DNA from: Streptomyces canus
GTDB taxonomy: Bacteria > Actinomycetota > Actinomycetes > Streptomycetales > Streptomycetaceae
Direction: 5' to 3'
DNA: 64,000 bases
Assembly (NCBI RefSeq): GCF_041435015.1
Contig: NZ_CP107989.1
Coordinates: 2,914,001-2,978,000, forward strand
In this document: piece after piece, positions 23,168-31,891 of the stretch
Layout: every line of letters begins with the position of its first letter
How positions within the stretch are numbered: position 1 is the first letter of the stretch
Translations under genes and position numbers: made by a program
Notes under the pieces: generated by a model
Told to the model about the DNA's origin: nothing
The model's database searches: none
What the model saw: the letters and a program-made list of their open reading frames with translations, nothing else

Positions 23168-25627
23168 ATGGCCCGCCGCAGCACGAAGACCCCGCCGCCC
23201 GACGACTCGTACGAGGAGCGGATCCTCGACATCGACGTCGTGGACGAGATGAAGGGCTCGTACCTCGAGTACGCGTACTCGGTCATCTACTCCCGCGCGC
23301 TCCCGGACGCCCGCGACGGCCTCAAGCCGGTGCACCGGCGCATCGTCTACCAGATGAACGAGATGGGCCTGCGCCCTGACCGCGGCTATGTGAAGTGTGC
23401 CCGCGTGGTCGGCGAGGTCATGGGTAAGTTGCACCCGCACGGCGACGCGTCGATCTACGACGCCCTCGTGCGCATGGCCCAGCCCTTCTCGATGAGCGTG
23501 CCGCTGGTAGACGGGCACGGCAACTTCGGTTCGCTGGGCAATGACGACCCGCCGGCCGCCATGCGGTACACCGAGTGCCGCGCCGCCGAGGCCGCGAGCC
23601 TGATGACGGAGTCCATCGACGAGGACACGGTCGACTTCGCGCCCAACTACGACGGCCAGGAGCAGGAGCCGGGCGCGCTGCCCGCCGCCTTCCCGAACCT
23701 GCTGGTGAACGGCTCCTCCGGCATCGCGGTCGGCATGGCCACCAACATGGCGCCGCACAACCTCGCCGAGGTCATCGCGGCGGCCCGCCACCTGATCCGC
23801 TACCCGAACGCGGACCTGGACGCCCTGATGCGGCACGTTCCGGGCCCCGACCTGCCCACCGGCGGCCGGATCGTCGGGCTCTCCGGCATCCGGGACGCCT
23901 ACGAGACGGGCCGCGGCACGTTCAAGATCCGCGCGACGGTGTCGGTGGAGACGGTGACGGCCCGCCGCAAGGGCCTCGTCGTCACCGAGCTGCCCTTCAC
24001 GGTCGGCCCGGAGAAGGTGATCGCCAAGATCAAGGACCTGGTCGGCTCGAAGAAGCTCCAGGGCATCGCCGACGTCAAGGACCTCACGGACCGCGCGCAC
24101 GGCCTGCGTCTGGTCATCGAGATCAAGAACGGCTTCGTGCCGGAAGCGGTCCTTGAGCAGCTCTACAAGCTGACGCCGATGGAGGAGTCCTTCGGCGTCA
24201 ACAACGTCGCGCTGGTGGACGGTCAGCCCCTCACGCTCGGCCTCAAGGAGCTCCTCGAGGTCTATCTCGACCACCGCTTCGAAGTGGTGCGCCGCCGCAG
24301 CGAGTTCCGGCGCACCAAGCGCCGCGACCGGCTGCACCTGGTCGAGGGTCTGCTCACCGCCCTGGTCGACATCGACGAGGTCATCCGCATCATCCGCTCC
24401 AGCGACAACTCAGCGCAGGCGAAGGAGCGCCTGATCGAGCGCTTCTCGCTGAGCGAGATCCAGACGCAGTACATCCTGGACACGCCCCTGCGGCGCCTGA
24501 CCAGGTTCGACCGCATCGAGCTGGAGTCGGAGAAGGACCGGCTCAACGCCGAGATCGCGGAGCTGACCCGGATCCTGGAGTCGGACGCCGAGCTGCGCAA
24601 GCTGGTCTCCGCCGAACTGGCCGCGGTCGCCAAGAAGTACGGCACCGAGCGGCGTACGGTCCTGCTGGAGGCCGGAGCGACGGCCCCCGTGACCGCCGTT
24701 CCGCTCCAGGTGGCGGACGACCCGTGCCGGGTACTGCTGTCCTCGACGGGCCTGCTGGCCCGTACGTCGAACGGCGAGCCGTTCCCGGAGGACGCCGACG
24801 CCAGGCGCAGTAAGCACGACGTGATCGTCTCCGCGGTACCGGCCACCGCGCGTGGCGAGATCGGCGCGGTCACGTCGTCCGGCCGCCTGCTGCGGCTGAA
24901 CGTCATCGACCTTCCGCAGCTCCCGGACACCGCCGCGGCCCCCAACCTCGCGGGCGGGGCCCCGCTGTCGGAGTTCCTCTCCCTGGAGGACGACGAGACG
25001 CTGGTCTGCCTGACCACGCTCGACGAGTCCTCCCCCGGTCTGGCGCTCGGCACCGAACAGGGCGTCGTCAAGCGCGTGGTCCCCGACTACCCGTCCAACA
25101 AGGGTGAGTTGGAGGTCATCACGCTCAAGGAGGGCGACCGGATCGTCGGCGCGATCGAACTGCGCACCGGTGAGGAGGACCTGGTGTTCATCACCGACGA
25201 CGCCCAGCTCCTGCGCTATCAGGCCGCGCAGGTCCGCCCGCAGGGCCGCCCGGCGGGCGGTATGGCGGGCATCAAGCTCACCGAGGGCGCGAAGGTCATC
25301 TCCTTCACCGCGGTGGATCCGGCCGTGGACGCGGTCGTCTTCACGGTCGCGGGCTCGCGCGGCACGCTCGACGACTCGGTCCAGACGACGGCCAAGCTGA
25401 CCCCGTTCGACCAGTACCCGCGCAAGGGCCGCGCCACGGGCGGTGTGCGCTGCCAGCGGTTCCTGAAGGGCGAGGACTGCCTGTCCCTGGCCTGGGCGGG
25501 CGCCGTCCCGGCCCGCGCCGCGCAGAAGAACGGCACACCGGCCGACCTCCCGGAGATCGACCCGCGCCGTGACGGCTCGGGCGTGTCGCTGGCGAAGACG
25601 GTGTCGGTGGTGGCGGGACCGGTCTAG
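23168..25627 (+). CDS. parC: DNA topoisomerase IV subunit A
   Basis: Breakage-reunion subunit that decatenates chromosomes. The 819 residues have the conserved opening [31 protein letters not shown], catalytic Tyr134 in AAMRYTECR, and a six-bladed C-terminal beta-pinwheel region from about 490. In the quinolone region [11 protein letters not shown], the position equivalent to GyrA Ser83 is alanine (A94) and the next is Ser95. Here parC stands alone; its partner parE is about 18 kb away, as in other Streptomyces. The stop codon overlaps that of the convergent CobW-type gene in the palindrome CTAG. Confidence 0.94.
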
Positions 25628-26700
25628 AAGCCGGGGTCCTGCTCGTCGGGATCCGGTACGTAGCGAAGGACGCCCCACATGCCGGCCTCGTCGGCGTGCG
25701 GGGCGTCCGCGTCTGCCCTGCACGCCTCCAGCTCCTTGCGCAGGGCGGGAGTGTCGATGGCGGAGCCGATGAGGACGAGCTGGGTGAGGCGGGTGTCACC
25801 GGGCGCCCAGGCCTCCGGGTAGAAGCGCAGGAAGCGTCCCACGGCATGGACGGCGTAACGGTTGCGGACGTCATGCGGGCCGAAGTCGACGTACCCCTTG
25901 ATCCGGTAGAGGCCCTCGGGCCTGCTGTCGAGGAACGTCATGAGCCGGCGGGGGTCGAGGGGTTCGCCGCAGGCGAAGGAGAGGCTGTCGTAGCCGGAGT
26001 GCAGATGTCCGGCGTGATCGTCACCGTGGTCGTGGTGGTCGTGGTGGTCGTGCAGGTCGTCGAAGGAGAGCTGTCCGATGCGCTCCTCGGCGGGCCGGCA
26101 GTCGAAGAGGAACTCGGGGTCGATGCGACCGTAGGTGGCGGGAACGACAGCCGCACGGTCGACAAGTCGATGCACCAGAGCGAGGACGTGTTCGGCATCG
26201 GCCGCCCGGTCGAGCTTGTTGACGACGACGAGGTCGGCGAGGGCGAGATGCCGGTCGATCTCGGGATGCCGGGCGCGGGTGTCGTCGAACTCGGCGGCGT
26301 CCACGACCTCGACGAGGCCGCCGTAGACGATTCCGGGTTGTTCGCTGGCGAGCACCATGCGGACGAGTTCCTGCGGCTCGGCGAGTCCGCTGGCCTCCAC
26401 GACGATCACATCGATACCGGTGTCGGGATGAGCGAGCCGGGACAGGTACTGGTCGAGTTCGCTGACATCGACGGCGCAGCACAGGCAGCCGTTCCCGAGG
26501 GAGACGGTGGAGTCGCCGAGCGCGCCGGCGACGGCCATGGCGTCGATCTCGATGGCACCGAAGTCGTTGACGATGGCTCCGATACGGCTGCCGCCGCTGC
26601 GGTGGAGGAGATGATTGAGGAGGGTGGTCTTGCCGGAACCCAGGAATCCGGCAAGGACGACGACCGGGACCTGCCGGTGGCTCCCGCTCGGCTGACTCAA
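25624..26700 (-). CDS. CobW/COG0523 GTP-dependent metallochaperone
   Basis: A 358-residue G3E-family GTPase. The P-loop is GFLGSGKTTLLNH (about 18-30), the metal-binding CxCC motif is GCLCCAVD (C72, C74, C75), and NKLD is the guanine-specificity motif near 161. A histidine-rich loop (217-234, with repeated HDHHDH) precedes the CobW C-terminal domain. Such proteins deliver zinc or cobalt to target proteins. The TTG start (MSQPSGSHRQ) follows AAAGAGG; there is no better start upstream. I found no clear Zur box upstream, and neighbours do not reveal the client. Confidence 0.88.
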   Translation of the reverse strand: MSQPSGSHRQVPVVVLAGFLGSGKTTLLNHLLHRSGGSRIGAIVNDFGAIEIDAMAVAGALGDSTVSLGNGCLCCAVDVSELDQYLSRLAHPDTGIDVIVVEASGLAEPQELVRMVLASEQPGIVYGGLVEVVDAAEFDDTRARHPEIDRHLALADLVVVNKLDRAADAEHVLALVHRLVDRAAVVPATYGRIDPEFLFDCRPAEERIGQLSFDDLHDHHDHHDHGDDHAGHLHSGYDSLSFACGEPLDPRRLMTFLDSRPEGLYRIKGYVDFGPHDVRNRYAVHAVGRFLRFYPEAWAPGDTRLTQLVLIGSAIDTPALRKELEACRADADAPHADEAGMWGVLRYVPDPDEQDPGF

Positions 26701-27022
26701 CGTGCGACCTCTTTCGCGCTGCCGCGTGCACCGGATCGCGGGCCCGGCGCACGTACGAGATGTGAATGCCGGACCAGGATACGAGCCGGAATAATCACCG
26801 CGAAGTGAACGATTGTTAGCAGCACTTGCGGGGCAGACGTTGGGGAAGGCGCCGGTTCGTGCGACCCTCACTTCCCTCCGTGCGCCTCCTCTCCGCCTCC
26901 CCCGCCGATCAGAGCCGCTCGGCACCCTGGGAGACGGCAAGCGCCGCCCACCGCTCGCCGGTCCCCATCAGTCGACCCGCACCCCGACGACCGGCGGACG
27001 GCCGCCTGAATCGGGGGTTGAC
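26701..27022. other. Divergent intergenic region
   Basis: About 320 bases between the metallochaperone gene and the DUF6082 gene, with no supported gene. The left third is relatively AT-rich (26760-26825) and probably holds promoters. No recognisable zinc or iron box was found. Confidence 0.45.
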
Positions 27023-28356: not shown

Positions 28357-29520
28357 TCAGGCCACTTGCGGCACCGCCACCGGCGCCCCCGGCCCCACGT
28401 ACCGCGCCACCGGCCTGATGATCTTCGAGTCCGCCGCCTGCTCCAGGATGTTGGCGCTCCACCCCACCACCCGCGCCGCCGCGAACGTCGGTGTGAACAT
28501 CTCGCGGGGCAGGCCGCACAGTTCCATGACCACGCCCGCGTAGAACTCGACGTTGGTGTGCAGCTCCCGCCCCGGCTTGAGCTCGGCCAGGATCGCCTCG
28601 ACATGGCGTTCCACCTCGACGGCGAAGTCCACACGTGGACCGCCGAACCGCTGGGCGACCTCCCGGAGCATCCGGGAACGCGGATCCTCCGTGCGGTAGA
28701 TCGCGTGACCGAAGCCCATGATCCGCTCACCGGAGAGCACACGCTCACGGATCCAGGAGTCGATGCGGTCGGGTGTGCCGATCGCGTCCAGGGTGTCCAG
28801 CGCCCGACTGGGCGCACCCCCGTGCAGCGGCCCGGACAACGCCCCTACGGCCCCCACGAGGCACGCGGCCACATCCGCTCCCGTCGACGCGATGACCCGC
28901 GCCGCGAAGGTTGATGCGTTGAAGCCGTGATCAATGGTTGAGATCAAGTACTGCTCGACCGCCCGCGCGCCTTGAGGCTCCGGCTCCGAACCCGTCAACA
29001 TGTAGAGGTAGTTCGCCGCGTACGAGAGGTCCTCACGCGGCTCCACCGGCTCCAGCCCCTTACCCAGCCGGTGCAACGCTGTGAGCAGCGTCGGCACGGC
29101 CGCAGCAGCTACGAGTGTGTCCCGTCGCCGCTCGTCCGGGTCGATGTCGTACACCGGCCGGAAGCCTTTCGCCGCTCCGAGCAGCGACAACGCGGTGCGC
29201 ATGCCGGCCAGCGGCCCGGACCGCCCACTCGCCGCAGCGATCGCCGGCAGCGCCGCCCGCACCTCGTCGGGCAGCCCCCGCAGTGCCGCGGTCTCGGCAC
29301 GGAAGGCCACGGCATGTCCGGCGTCCGGCAGTTCCCCGTGGACCAGGAGATGCCAGACGTCCTCGAAGCCGCGGGTCTGCGCGAGTTCGACAGCCGAGTA
29401 CTGGCGGTAGTGGTAGAAGCCCTCGCGTCCCCGGACATCTCCGACCTCGGTGTCGGTGACGACGACTCCGGCGAGTCCTCGCGGTACGTCGACGAGCGTG
29501 GTTGACCTGTTGACCGACAT
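28357..29520 (-). CDS. Citrate synthase
   Basis: Condenses acetyl-CoA with oxaloacetate (or propionyl-CoA in methylcitrate-type members). The 387 residues keep the active-site motifs: His in GPLHGGAPSRAL, His in GFGHAIYRTEDPRSRML, and Asp/Glu region NVEFYAGVVMELCGLP. The length and the N-terminal VDVPRGLAGVVVTDTEVGDV place it with the short type II citrate synthases. It starts with ATG after GGGAGGAATC. It is divergent from a second citrate synthase that carries a DNA-binding domain, and the shared promoter region contains AATCAA-type repeats that may control both. Confidence 0.92.
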   Translation of the reverse strand: MSVNRSTTLVDVPRGLAGVVVTDTEVGDVRGREGFYHYRQYSAVELAQTRGFEDVWHLLVHGELPDAGHAVAFRAETAALRGLPDEVRAALPAIAAASGRSGPLAGMRTALSLLGAAKGFRPVYDIDPDERRRDTLVAAAAVPTLLTALHRLGKGLEPVEPREDLSYAANYLYMLTGSEPEPQGARAVEQYLISTIDHGFNASTFAARVIASTGADVAACLVGAVGALSGPLHGGAPSRALDTLDAIGTPDRIDSWIRERVLSGERIMGFGHAIYRTEDPRSRMLREVAQRFGGPRVDFAVEVERHVEAILAELKPGRELHTNVEFYAGVVMELCGLPREMFTPTFAAARVVGWSANILEQAADSKIIRPVARYVGPGAPVAVPQVA

Positions 29521-29535
29521 GATTCCTCCCTGGAC

Positions 29536-29602
29536 TTGATTCGACTGTCCATGGTTGACTCAGTATGTGTCAATATTGATTGAATCAATATACGCGAATC
29601 AA
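29536..29602. promoter_or_regulatory. Cluster of TTGATT/AATCAA repeats with a 19-bp perfect palindrome
   Basis: Within the 112-base divergent region between the two citrate synthases lies ATATTGATTGAATCAATAT (29573-29591), a perfect palindrome about G29582. Outer half-sites TTGATTCG (29536-29543) and CGAATCAA (29595-29602) form a second inverted pair. The stretch is strikingly AT-rich for this genome. The likely role is an operator; a natural candidate ligand is the HTH-citrate synthase encoded next to it (inference). Confidence 0.6.
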
Positions 29603-29632
29603 CCCACCCGGTTACGGATACGGTGACCTCTT

Positions 29633-30895
29633 ATGCGCGATCAAGACCCCCTCCCCGGCCCTGCCGAACGCCGGCTCAGCACCAAGGAAGCGGCCGAGCT
29701 GCTGGGCGTGAAGCCCGAGACCGTCTACGCCTACGTGAGCCGAGGCCAGCTCAGCAGCCGACGCGTTCCCGGCGGCCGGGGCAGCACCTTCGACGCCAAG
29801 GAGGTGGAGGCCCTCTCCCGGCGCAACCGCCGGGAAAGCGGCGGGAGTCCGGGCTCCGGCGGCGAACTGTCCGTGCGCACCCGCATCACGTTCATCGACC
29901 GGGACCGCTACTACTTCCGGGGCGTCGACGCCACCGAACTGGCCGCGCAGCACTCCTACGAAGAGATCGCGGAATGGCTGTGGACCGGCCGTCTACGCCC
30001 CGGAGTCACCTTCACCGCGCCCGACGCCGCCGTCGAGGTGGCCCGCCGCGCGGTCGACGCGCTGCCCGAACACACAGGCCCCACGGACCGGTTGCGGGTG
30101 GCGGCGATCGCCGCCGCGGTCTCGGACCCCCTGCGTTTCGACCTGTCCGAAGAAGCCGTGCTCGGCACCGCACGGACCCTCATCCCGACCCTCGTCGCCG
30201 CCCTGCCGCCCGTGCTGCGGGACCGCCGCCGCGACGACGGTCCGCTGGCCCACCGGCTGTGGACGCGCCTCAGCGGACGCAAGCCCGACGAGGCATCTCT
30301 GCGCGCCCTGGACACCGCACTGGGTCTGCTCGTCGACCACGACCTCGCCGCCTCGACCCTCGCGGTGCGCGTCGCCGCATCGGCCCACGCGCACGCGTAC
30401 GCGGCCGTCTCCGCCGGACTCGGTGTCCTGGAGGGCCCCTTGCACGGCGCTGCCAGCGGGCTCGCCCACAAGCTGCTGCTCGATGTGCTCGACCGGGGCG
30501 ACGCGGCCCCCGTCATCGCGGAGGAACTGCGGGCCGGTCGCCGGATTCCTGGCCTCGGTCACCGGCTCTACCCCGGCGAAGACCCACGCGCGCGAGCCCT
30601 GTTCGCCCTCCTGGAGGAGATCCCGCACGCAGAACCCGCACTCCTCGCGGTCCGCGACATCGTGGCCACCACCGCCCGCCACGCCCCTCTGCACGCCAAC
30701 GTGGACCTGGCCCTCGCCGCCCTCACGGCCTCCTCCGGGATGCCGTCCACGGCGGGCGAGACGATCTTCGCGGTCGCCCGCACGGCGGGCTGGATCGCCC
30801 ACACACTGGAGGAGTACGGGGAGCGCCCCCTGCGCATGCGCCCGAGCGGCACCTATGTGGGCCCGAAGCCACCCCAACCCCTGCCGGAGCACTGA
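29633..30895 (+). CDS. Citrate synthase with N-terminal helix-turn-helix domain
   Basis: A 420-residue fusion. Residues about 14-62 form an excisionase/MerR-like DNA-binding helix-turn-helix (LSTKEAAELLGVKPETVYAYVSRGQLSSRRVPGG...GSTFDAKEVEAL). A linker leads to a citrate synthase domain (about 80-410) that keeps the histidine motifs GPLHGAASG and GLGHRLYPGEDPRARAL and the Asp motif HANVDLAL. The usual glycine/aromatic residues after that Asp are altered (NVDLALAAL rather than NVDFYSG-like), so activity may be reduced. It could be an enzyme, a metabolite-sensing regulator, or both. Divergent from an ordinary citrate synthase. Confidence 0.9.
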   Translation: MRDQDPLPGPAERRLSTKEAAELLGVKPETVYAYVSRGQLSSRRVPGGRGSTFDAKEVEALSRRNRRESGGSPGSGGELSVRTRITFIDRDRYYFRGVDATELAAQHSYEEIAEWLWTGRLRPGVTFTAPDAAVEVARRAVDALPEHTGPTDRLRVAAIAAAVSDPLRFDLSEEAVLGTARTLIPTLVAALPPVLRDRRRDDGPLAHRLWTRLSGRKPDEASLRALDTALGLLVDHDLAASTLAVRVAASAHAHAYAAVSAGLGVLEGPLHGAASGLAHKLLLDVLDRGDAAPVIAEELRAGRRIPGLGHRLYPGEDPRARALFALLEEIPHAEPALLAVRDIVATTARHAPLHANVDLALAALTASSGMPSTAGETIFAVARTAGWIAHTLEEYGERPLRMRPSGTYVGPKPPQPLPEH

Positions 30896-30946: not shown

Positions 30947-31891
30947 GTGAGTACCTGCTCAACGGTCTCGCACGACCTCGACGAGCCCGTTTCCGGAACC
31001 GCGGCCACCGCGCGGACCTGGCTGCTGCTGGAACAGTCCGGTCCCTGGGGCGCCAAGGCGCTCACTTCGAGCCACCTGGACCCCGCGCTGGGGCGTGCCC
31101 TGGAGACCGCAGCGAAGGACACGGGCGTGCGCATCGCGCTCATCCGCCGCCCCGGACGGCACGCCGACAGCGGAACACCCACCACCCGGCAGGCGTACAT
31201 CGCCCACACCGTGCCCGGCAACGTGTGGCTGCGCAGTGCGACGACCCGCGATCCGCGGGACCTGCTCGAGCTGGACTTCGTCGCGCTCGGCAGGGGCGAG
31301 CACGCCACCTTCGACTCCGTGCTCGGGGGGCGTCCCCACACCGGCGGCCCCCTCGCGCTCGTCTGCACCAACGGCAAGCGGGACCGCTGCTGCGCGCTCC
31401 TCGGCCGCCCGCTCGCCGCGCAACTGGCCGCCTCGGGCGTCGAGGGCGCCTGGGAGGTCACCCATCTGGGTGGTCACCGGTTCTCGCCGACGCTGCTCGT
31501 TCTGCCGTACGGCTATGCCTACGGCCGCGCCGAGGCCCATGCCGTCAAGGAAGTCCTCCACAGCGTCCAGGAGGGCCGCATCGTGGTCGAGGGGTGCCGC
31601 GGAAGCTCGGCCTGGGAGCGCCCCGGCCAGGCGGCCGAGCTGGCCGTGCGCTCGGCGGTGCGTGAATACGCGGCGGAGGCGCTGACAGTCGTACGAACGG
31701 ACGGCGCCGCCCCGCACTGGGAGGTCACCGTCGCTCACGCCGACGGCCGCCACTGGCGCGTCCTCGTGGCCCAGACCGCATCCCTGCCGCCCCGTCCGGA
31801 GAGCTGCGGTGCGTCGGCGCTCGGCTCACCCGCGCGGATGGACGTCGTGGCGGTGCACGAGCTGAGGACATCGGCAGCGCTGGCGAGCTGA
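30947..31891 (+). CDS. Sucraseferredoxin-like protein (thioredoxin-like Fe-S family)
   Basis: A 314-residue protein of the Suc_Fer-like family. The N-terminus has ARTWLLLEQSGPWGAKAL. The core has LVCTNGKRDRCCALLGRPLA, with a CxxxxxxxCC cluster, and WEVTHLGGHRFSPTLLVLPYGYAYGR, the conserved HxGGHRF motif. These cysteines and histidines suggest a [2Fe-2S] site in a thioredoxin-like fold. The GTG start directly abuts an iron box and has no ribosome site, so the mRNA is probably leaderless. Iron control fits a role in siderophore or iron handling (inference). Confidence 0.85.
   Translation: MSTCSTVSHDLDEPVSGTAATARTWLLLEQSGPWGAKALTSSHLDPALGRALETAAKDTGVRIALIRRPGRHADSGTPTTRQAYIAHTVPGNVWLRSATTRDPRDLLELDFVALGRGEHATFDSVLGGRPHTGGPLALVCTNGKRDRCCALLGRPLAAQLAASGVEGAWEVTHLGGHRFSPTLLVLPYGYAYGRAEAHAVKEVLHSVQEGRIVVEGCRGSSAWERPGQAAELAVRSAVREYAAEALTVVRTDGAAPHWEVTVAHADGRHWRVLVAQTASLPPRPESCGASALGSPARMDVVAVHELRTSAALAS

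Follow-up and report, generated by a model that had tools for sequence, protein, structure and literature searches.

A winged helix-turn-helix citrate synthase and its conserved operator: a candidate one-component regulator in two bacterial phyla

In PutA and other trigger enzymes, an enzyme is joined to a DNA-binding domain, and a divergent promoter is the presumed target. No description of a citrate synthase with a helix-turn-helix (HTH) as a regulator was found in the literature searched, most subscription journals lying outside its scope. The closest described gene pair is that of Streptomyces coelicolor, in which SCO5831 adjoins the sucrase gene SCO5830 (PMC9739823). In PMC12323332, SCO5831/SCO5832 (citA3/citA4) were treated as putative citrate synthases under the regulator MtrA, with MtrA site distances of -92/-16 at citA3/citA4, and both genes were expressed more highly late in an mtrA mutant; neither 'helix-turn-helix' nor 'palindrom' occurs in its main text. 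Going by the gene order in the former source and the site distances in the latter, SCO5831 would be the counterpart of the fusion gene analysed here (HTH-CS), SCO5832 that of its divergent citrate synthase (CS), and the locus the same.

The fusion protein and its neighbours

The window (the whole 64,000-nucleotide stretch of Streptomyces canus DNA that was analysed) contains the following coding features:

28357..29520, minus strand: divergent citrate synthase gene without an HTH (CS, 387 aa), predicted target; ORF list, profile search and locus comparison
29633..30895, plus strand: HTH-CS gene, winged HTH plus citrate synthase (420 aa, ATG start); ORF, profile search and AlphaFold model
29672..29839, plus strand: winged HTH, residues 14-69; family alignments and AlphaFold model
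29864..30844, plus strand: citrate synthase domain, residues 78-404, catalytic His, His and Asp kept; profile search and alignment

The fusion of an excisionase-like HTH to a citrate synthase, read from the letters in the preliminary description, was confirmed by profile searches. The Pfam profile HTH_17 matched residues 15-61 with 35.5 bits (cut-off 27), TIGR01764 ('excise') scored 30.5 bits, above the cut-off of 28.8 for an excisionase-type HTH, and Citrate_synt (PF00285) matched residues 78-404 with 213.7 bits (cut-off 27), which places the protein in that superfamily. The 420-aa protein and 112-base promoter region given there likewise agreed with the ORF and with the intergenic stretch at 29521-29632 (112 nt). 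The protein fell outside the BldC family (NF033787, 24.8 bits, cut-off 77) and outside TIGR01800, citrate synthase II / methylcitrate synthase (163 bits, cut-off 421.3). PF00376 (MerR) scored 29.1 in the window protein (cut-off 28.2) and 19.5, below the cut-off, in the L123 homologue, in which TIGR01764 was also below its cut-off (23.7 bits against 28.8). The part after the HTH is the citrate synthase domain, which stands at the place of the MerR effector part.

In the AlphaFold model (mean pLDDT 92.4), a short low-confidence linker joined the winged HTH to the citrate synthase domain, and among the 50 PDB matches listed, citrate or methylcitrate synthases were found throughout. The HTH was strongly conserved in the family alignment, and five of its residues at or close to the second helix (T30, Y32, S36, R37, G38) were invariant or nearly so. 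The window protein had both the aligned His-His-Asp residues, which we take to be the catalytic ones, and the substrate arginines; in a set of 128 homologues, some of them without a Pfam HTH match, the triad was present in 121 and the two arginines in 128 and 127, respectively. In the DHxxNAS motif, the window clade had Ala where CS has Asn. In a tree of undefined root, 34 sampled HTH-CS rows, two of them on long branches, formed one side with support of 100/100, separate from the 17 CS partners sampled and from 7 further citrate synthases. The proteobacterial proteins were about 30-39% identical to that of the window in full-length matches, a few being matched in pieces. One Streptomyces carried a second, distant HTH-CS (L127:8222-9481, 33% identical) that had lost one catalytic His and kept the HTH, as had the whole group around it (L127, P0121, P0122, P0123); this paralogue may be a pure regulator.

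Most citrate synthases have Asp at the third catalytic position, which the HTH-CS family keeps. The divergent CS has Glu there, as does CitA of B. subtilis (2c6x) in the alignment. After HTH-CS and in the same direction, a sucrase/ferredoxin-like gene (30947-31891) was present in 93 of 105 loci. A GTPase-like ORF with a His-rich run lies at 25624-26940 on the minus strand, and we take it to resemble, perhaps, a CobW-type metal chaperone.

The view that the partner is always a citrate synthase was ruled out by the neighbours of other HTH-CS genes. In some loci of other Actinomycetes the partner was HMGL-type (L123:9002-10240, L125:8012-9340) and below every NCBIfam cut-off shown, and sources disagree on its relatives at 81-83% identity, some naming them citrate (Re)-synthase and others homocitrate or isopropylmalate synthase. 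Going by these names, the HMGL partner is a candidate Re-citrate synthase; misannotation of Re-citrate synthase in this manner is described as frequent in PMC12016533. In Proteobacteria, the divergent neighbour was CS in L216, L217, L218, L221 and L223, a family-III CoA-transferase in L225 and L231, a 2-hydroxyacid dehydrogenase in L226, L227 and L228, and DUF2332 (L224), DinB (L222) or an MFS transporter (L229) elsewhere, and in L230 the neighbouring gene was codirectional.

In several Streptomyces the CS gene was split near codon 37-40, at ..YRQ (L031, L104, L110; G258; G151:C7). The two parts lay about 115 kb apart in G258 (C53 654.5-769.8 kb; L207, L209, L211) and 164 kb apart in G151, with an identical foreign junction sequence in two of the genomes, and G258 had a second, whole CS copy with an operator about 20 kb from HTH-CS. 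The pattern looks as if the CS gene had served as the insertion site of DNA that carried a substitute for it. A DDE transposase adjoined one junction, and no integrase was recognized by Pfam among seven ORFs near the junctions.

The operator in the intergenic DNA and across loci

The intergenic stretch contains the following elements:

29536-29543: left outer half-site TTGATTCG; exact in the window, conserved inside a 25-bp block
29536..29560, unstranded: second conserved block, CS side, 25 bp, probably the CS promoter; alignment of 103 regions
29544..29549, minus strand: possible CS -10 (GACAGT), 18 bp from the -35; proposed from sequence
29568..29573, minus strand: predicted CS -35 (TTGACA), overlapping the operator; proposed from sequence and conservation
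29570..29588, unstranded: operator TCAATATTGATTGAATCAA, the sole genome match to TCAAYRTTGA-N4-8-TCAA; genome scan and conservation
29573..29591, unstranded: 19-bp perfect palindrome ATATTGATT-G-AATCAATAT, part of the operator; exact in sequence
29595..29602, unstranded: right outer half-site CGAATCAA; exact in the window, unconserved
29619..29624, plus strand: predicted HTH-CS -10 (TACGGT); conserved

The palindrome was exactly as first described. Its 15-bp core, with up to three mismatches, is expected 0.01 times per 64-kb window and was found only in the 29573-29591 region. In 103 aligned Streptomyces upstream regions the conserved columns were 29536-29560 and 29568-29589 (TGTCAATATTGATTGAATCAAT). 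The outer half-sites had been read as an inverted pair: their letters are exact, and the pairing was rejected, since the right half showed at most about 0.2 bit per column in these 103 regions and the left half was conserved as part of the CS-side block. Within that block, 29536-29551 corresponds by sequence to the MtrA-bound site of S. coelicolor, and part of the intergenic conservation is attributable to this other regulator (PMC12323332). In the 29616-29633 region, GATACGGT was conserved about 6-8 bp before the HTH-CS ATG and no ribosome-binding site was seen there; the transcript is probably leaderless. A similar CATAGTG stands directly before the ATG of the CoA-transferase gene considered below.

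Across families, the constant unit was TCAAYNTTGA-N4-9-TCAA. From 197 rows, 30 with identical upstream DNA, three cut loci, the ordinary citrate synthases L025, L027, L028, L030 and L114, and the fragments without an N-terminus L023 and L026 were left out; the records taken were 3 of 12 plasmid records, 11 of 79 (from 30 listed, mostly one per genus) and 2 of 2. Among 132 distinct actinobacterial loci in which CS is divergent, HTH-CS was preceded by the full operator in 117 and by the core TTGA-N4-9-TCAAYR in 129, L020, L033 and L090 being the exceptions. All four loci with an HMGL-type partner had the full operator too, as did both further actinobacterial records. Of 14 proteobacterial loci, 12 had it, L227 having one mismatch and L230 no site. 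The operator was retained beside Re-citrate-synthase-like, CoA-transferase and 2-hydroxyacid dehydrogenase partners. Among the eight loci with neither a CS nor an HMGL partner, it was found in L017, L031, L104 and L110 and missing from L013, L127, L173 and L206. Shuffled upstream regions gave no full operator in any control, and the core appeared in 0-5 of about 400-660 shuffles per group. The locus counts take no account of phylogeny.

The inner operator bases covaried on both sides (TATTGA...TCAATA against CGTTGA...TCAACG). The spacing between half-sites was mostly 5 bp in Streptomyces and 9 bp wherever Proteobacteria had a site (13 loci), the Niveispirillum operator being TCAATATTGATTCAATAAATCAATAT; a single fixed spacing was rejected by this range of 5 to 9 bp across families, and the difference between 5 and 9 bp is not simply explained by a rigid dimer.

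The preliminary description proposed that the protein recognizes the repeats and that these should accompany orthologues that keep the HTH. Comparison across two phyla strongly supports this recognition, and the search beside orthologues largely bore it out. The exceptions were few: the HTH was kept with no upstream operator in L013/L128, L206, L230 and the distant paralogue L127, the core was also missing in L020 and L090, L173 had only a near match, and L033 had the site elsewhere.

Operators away from the fusion gene

The full operator occurred once in the window's own genome. In 61 relatives the exact pattern occurred 25 times in 23 genomes, 21 of these at the HTH-CS/CS locus. An exact site at the HTH-CS locus was present in 21 of 23 genomes with full-length HTH-CS, and a site anywhere in 2 of 36 without it (Fisher 1e-11, phylogeny not corrected); the two genomes carrying HTH-CS fragments had no exact pattern. 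Since relatives share descent, such small p-values overstate the evidence. Neither operator nor core was found at eight CS orthologues (68-75% identical) in genomes without HTH-CS, seven of one family and one Streptomyces, and the idea that the motif simply belongs to the CS gene was therefore rejected. These eight remained from 11 rows after removal of L204 (core present, HTH apparently readable in the upstream DNA), L205 (an additional copy from a genome that has HTH-CS) and L207 (a fragment without its 5' end).

Five CS copies that are not directly divergent from HTH-CS had the operator at their own start (L033, L064, L066, L104 and L205, the L104 copy being matched only to residue 78). In L033 this CS was 2.4 kb away, and in L064 the CS-side block left behind at HTH-CS had decayed and the palindrome core remained, as expected if the CS promoter is regulated in trans. 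An in-place inversion of CS in L064/L066 was rejected, since the gene has its own upstream operator and promoter, and relocation fits better.

The sole palindrome with two mismatches in the window's own genome was located some 5 Mb from the window, immediately before a CoA-transferase gene whose product was 40% identical to an Ewingella CoA-transferase (PF02515) that is itself divergent from HTH-CS. Across 72 Streptomyces loci, the core preceded this gene in 20 of the 44 that have HTH-CS and in 1 of the 28 that do not, and the strict form YRTTGA-N5-TCAAYR in 16 of 44 and 0 of 28, respectively (Fisher about 1e-4); 72 of 73 genomes were tested, G503 (5' part unmatched) and the second G471 copy being left out. 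The idea arose from the own genome and a first set, in which the core occurred in 9 of 13 loci against 0 of 17 (11 of the 17 being Streptomyces); in the loci added later it occurred in 11 of 31 with HTH-CS and 1 of 17 without (Fisher 0.035). For CoA-transferases at least 70% identical, the counts were 15 of 26 and 0 of 8. The core was missing in 24 of the 44 HTH-CS genomes. Two genomes that kept HTH-CS without a local operator, G013 (L013) and G162 (L206), had a perfect core at the CoA-transferase, and no CS orthologue was found in them at the threshold used.

It had also been proposed that TCA flux is coupled to control of 'the ordinary' citrate synthase gene. This was not supported: the genome has citrate synthases besides the divergent CS, and other bacteria pair HTH-CS with genes for something other than a Si-type citrate synthase. 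Another citrate synthase, at C1:5689449, is without a full operator, the genome's single one being at 29570-29588.

Regulatory interpretation and comparison with known systems

Since the operator was kept with HTH-CS, across partners, at separated CS copies and at the CoA-transferase, HTH-CS most likely works in trans as a one-component regulator. As a whole, the observations are best explained by an operator-binding regulator with active-site sensing, more likely a repressor, a reading we hold with good though incomplete confidence. The winged HTH would bind TCAAYNTTGA-N4-9-TCAA in the divergent promoter and act in trans at one or a few other promoters, and the citrate synthase domain would form a dimer. 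The kept active site would read an oxoacid (e.g., oxaloacetate), an acyl-CoA or their condensation product, and this ligand would alter DNA binding. At the window locus HTH-CS would control both its own gene and the divergent CS, with repression the likelier sign, and in many Streptomyces also the unlinked CoA-transferase gene. Since the triad is so widely kept, sensing at the active site is likely, and the site may, judging by its residues, serve as the sensor.

The same triad would also suit a bifunctional trigger enzyme, an active synthase and regulator that leaves the DNA during substrate turnover by a PutA-like logic. This is possible though less likely, as a pure sensor would be expected to conserve its pocket just as well, the HTH persists in the L127 group without one catalytic His, and Ala replaces the Asn of DHxxNAS in the window clade. 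That very loss of His with retention of the HTH could instead mean that the citrate synthase domain is a mere dimerization scaffold and HTH-CS a constitutive autorepressor with no sensing. We consider this improbable, since the triad and the substrate arginines are strongly retained elsewhere among the homologues. It is still far less probable that the palindrome belongs to MtrA or GlnR and that the HTH is a relic on an ordinary enzyme. In PMC12323332, MtrA bound a probe from the S. coelicolor intergenic region and citA3 and citA4 rose late in the mtrA mutant, but the MtrA site corresponds to the other conserved block, at 29536-29551, and not to the palindrome. Moreover, the palindrome tracks HTH-CS across two phyla and is missing at CS orthologues of HTH-CS-free genomes, and the HTH itself is strongly conserved.

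With regard to the sign of regulation, HTH-CS could be an activator that turns on its own gene, the CS gene or both. In Streptomyces (n=93), the distances from the operator to the HTH-CS -10 clustered at 28-31, 38-45 and 49-56 bp, with single values of 19 and 35 bp and two of 72 bp, as dependence on the face of the helix would give. However, with repeated distances collapsed the phasing was weak (R about 0.39, n=22, phylogeny ignored) and is suggestive only. The site covers part of the predicted CS -35 and, in several Proteobacteria, directly adjoins the HTH-CS start (the annotated start in L223 and L224, the likely start in L221 and L229); repression is therefore likelier, and activation less likely.

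In a wider sense, we lean towards regarding HTH-CS as an undescribed cross-phylum transcription factor family that would use the citrate synthase active site as a sensor of oxoacid/acyl-CoA state. A single old operator, TCAAYNTTGA-N-TCAA, would have persisted as one controlled gene gave way to another (Si-type citrate synthase, Re-citrate-synthase-like enzyme, CoA-transferase, 2-hydroxyacid dehydrogenase), and the family would govern several organic-acid pathways, in Streptomyces via a small trans regulon. If this is true, one of the most thoroughly studied enzyme folds of central metabolism was turned, in Actinomycetota and Pseudomonadota, into a metabolite sensor that sits on DNA, and there are regulators among the genes now called simply 'citrate synthase'. 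Genome-scale metabolic models should accordingly not count HTH-CS genes as additional citrate synthases without proof. The precise operator, the gene pair SCO5831/SCO5832 in a model organism and a second predicted target make direct testing feasible.

HTH-CS shares its fold and active-site residues with the type II citrate and 2-methylcitrate synthases (PF00285, TIGR01800; 6abx, 2c6x, 8an1), but adds an N-terminal winged HTH, scores below the TIGR01800 cut-off and forms its own clade apart from the sampled ones. Its DNA-binding domain is of the same type as the excisionase, BldC and MerR-like winged HTH (TIGR01764, NF033787, PF00376), with weak matches to the solved members 4j2n and 6ama (E 0.036 and 0.087), and differs from these in being fused to an enzyme domain. 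With an enzyme fold and a DNA-binding domain in one chain and a conserved operator, HTH-CS would belong with the trigger enzymes by functional likeness, not homology: it shares with PutA the plan of an enzyme plus a DNA-binding domain and a presumed divergent-promoter target, whereas the domains themselves are unrelated.
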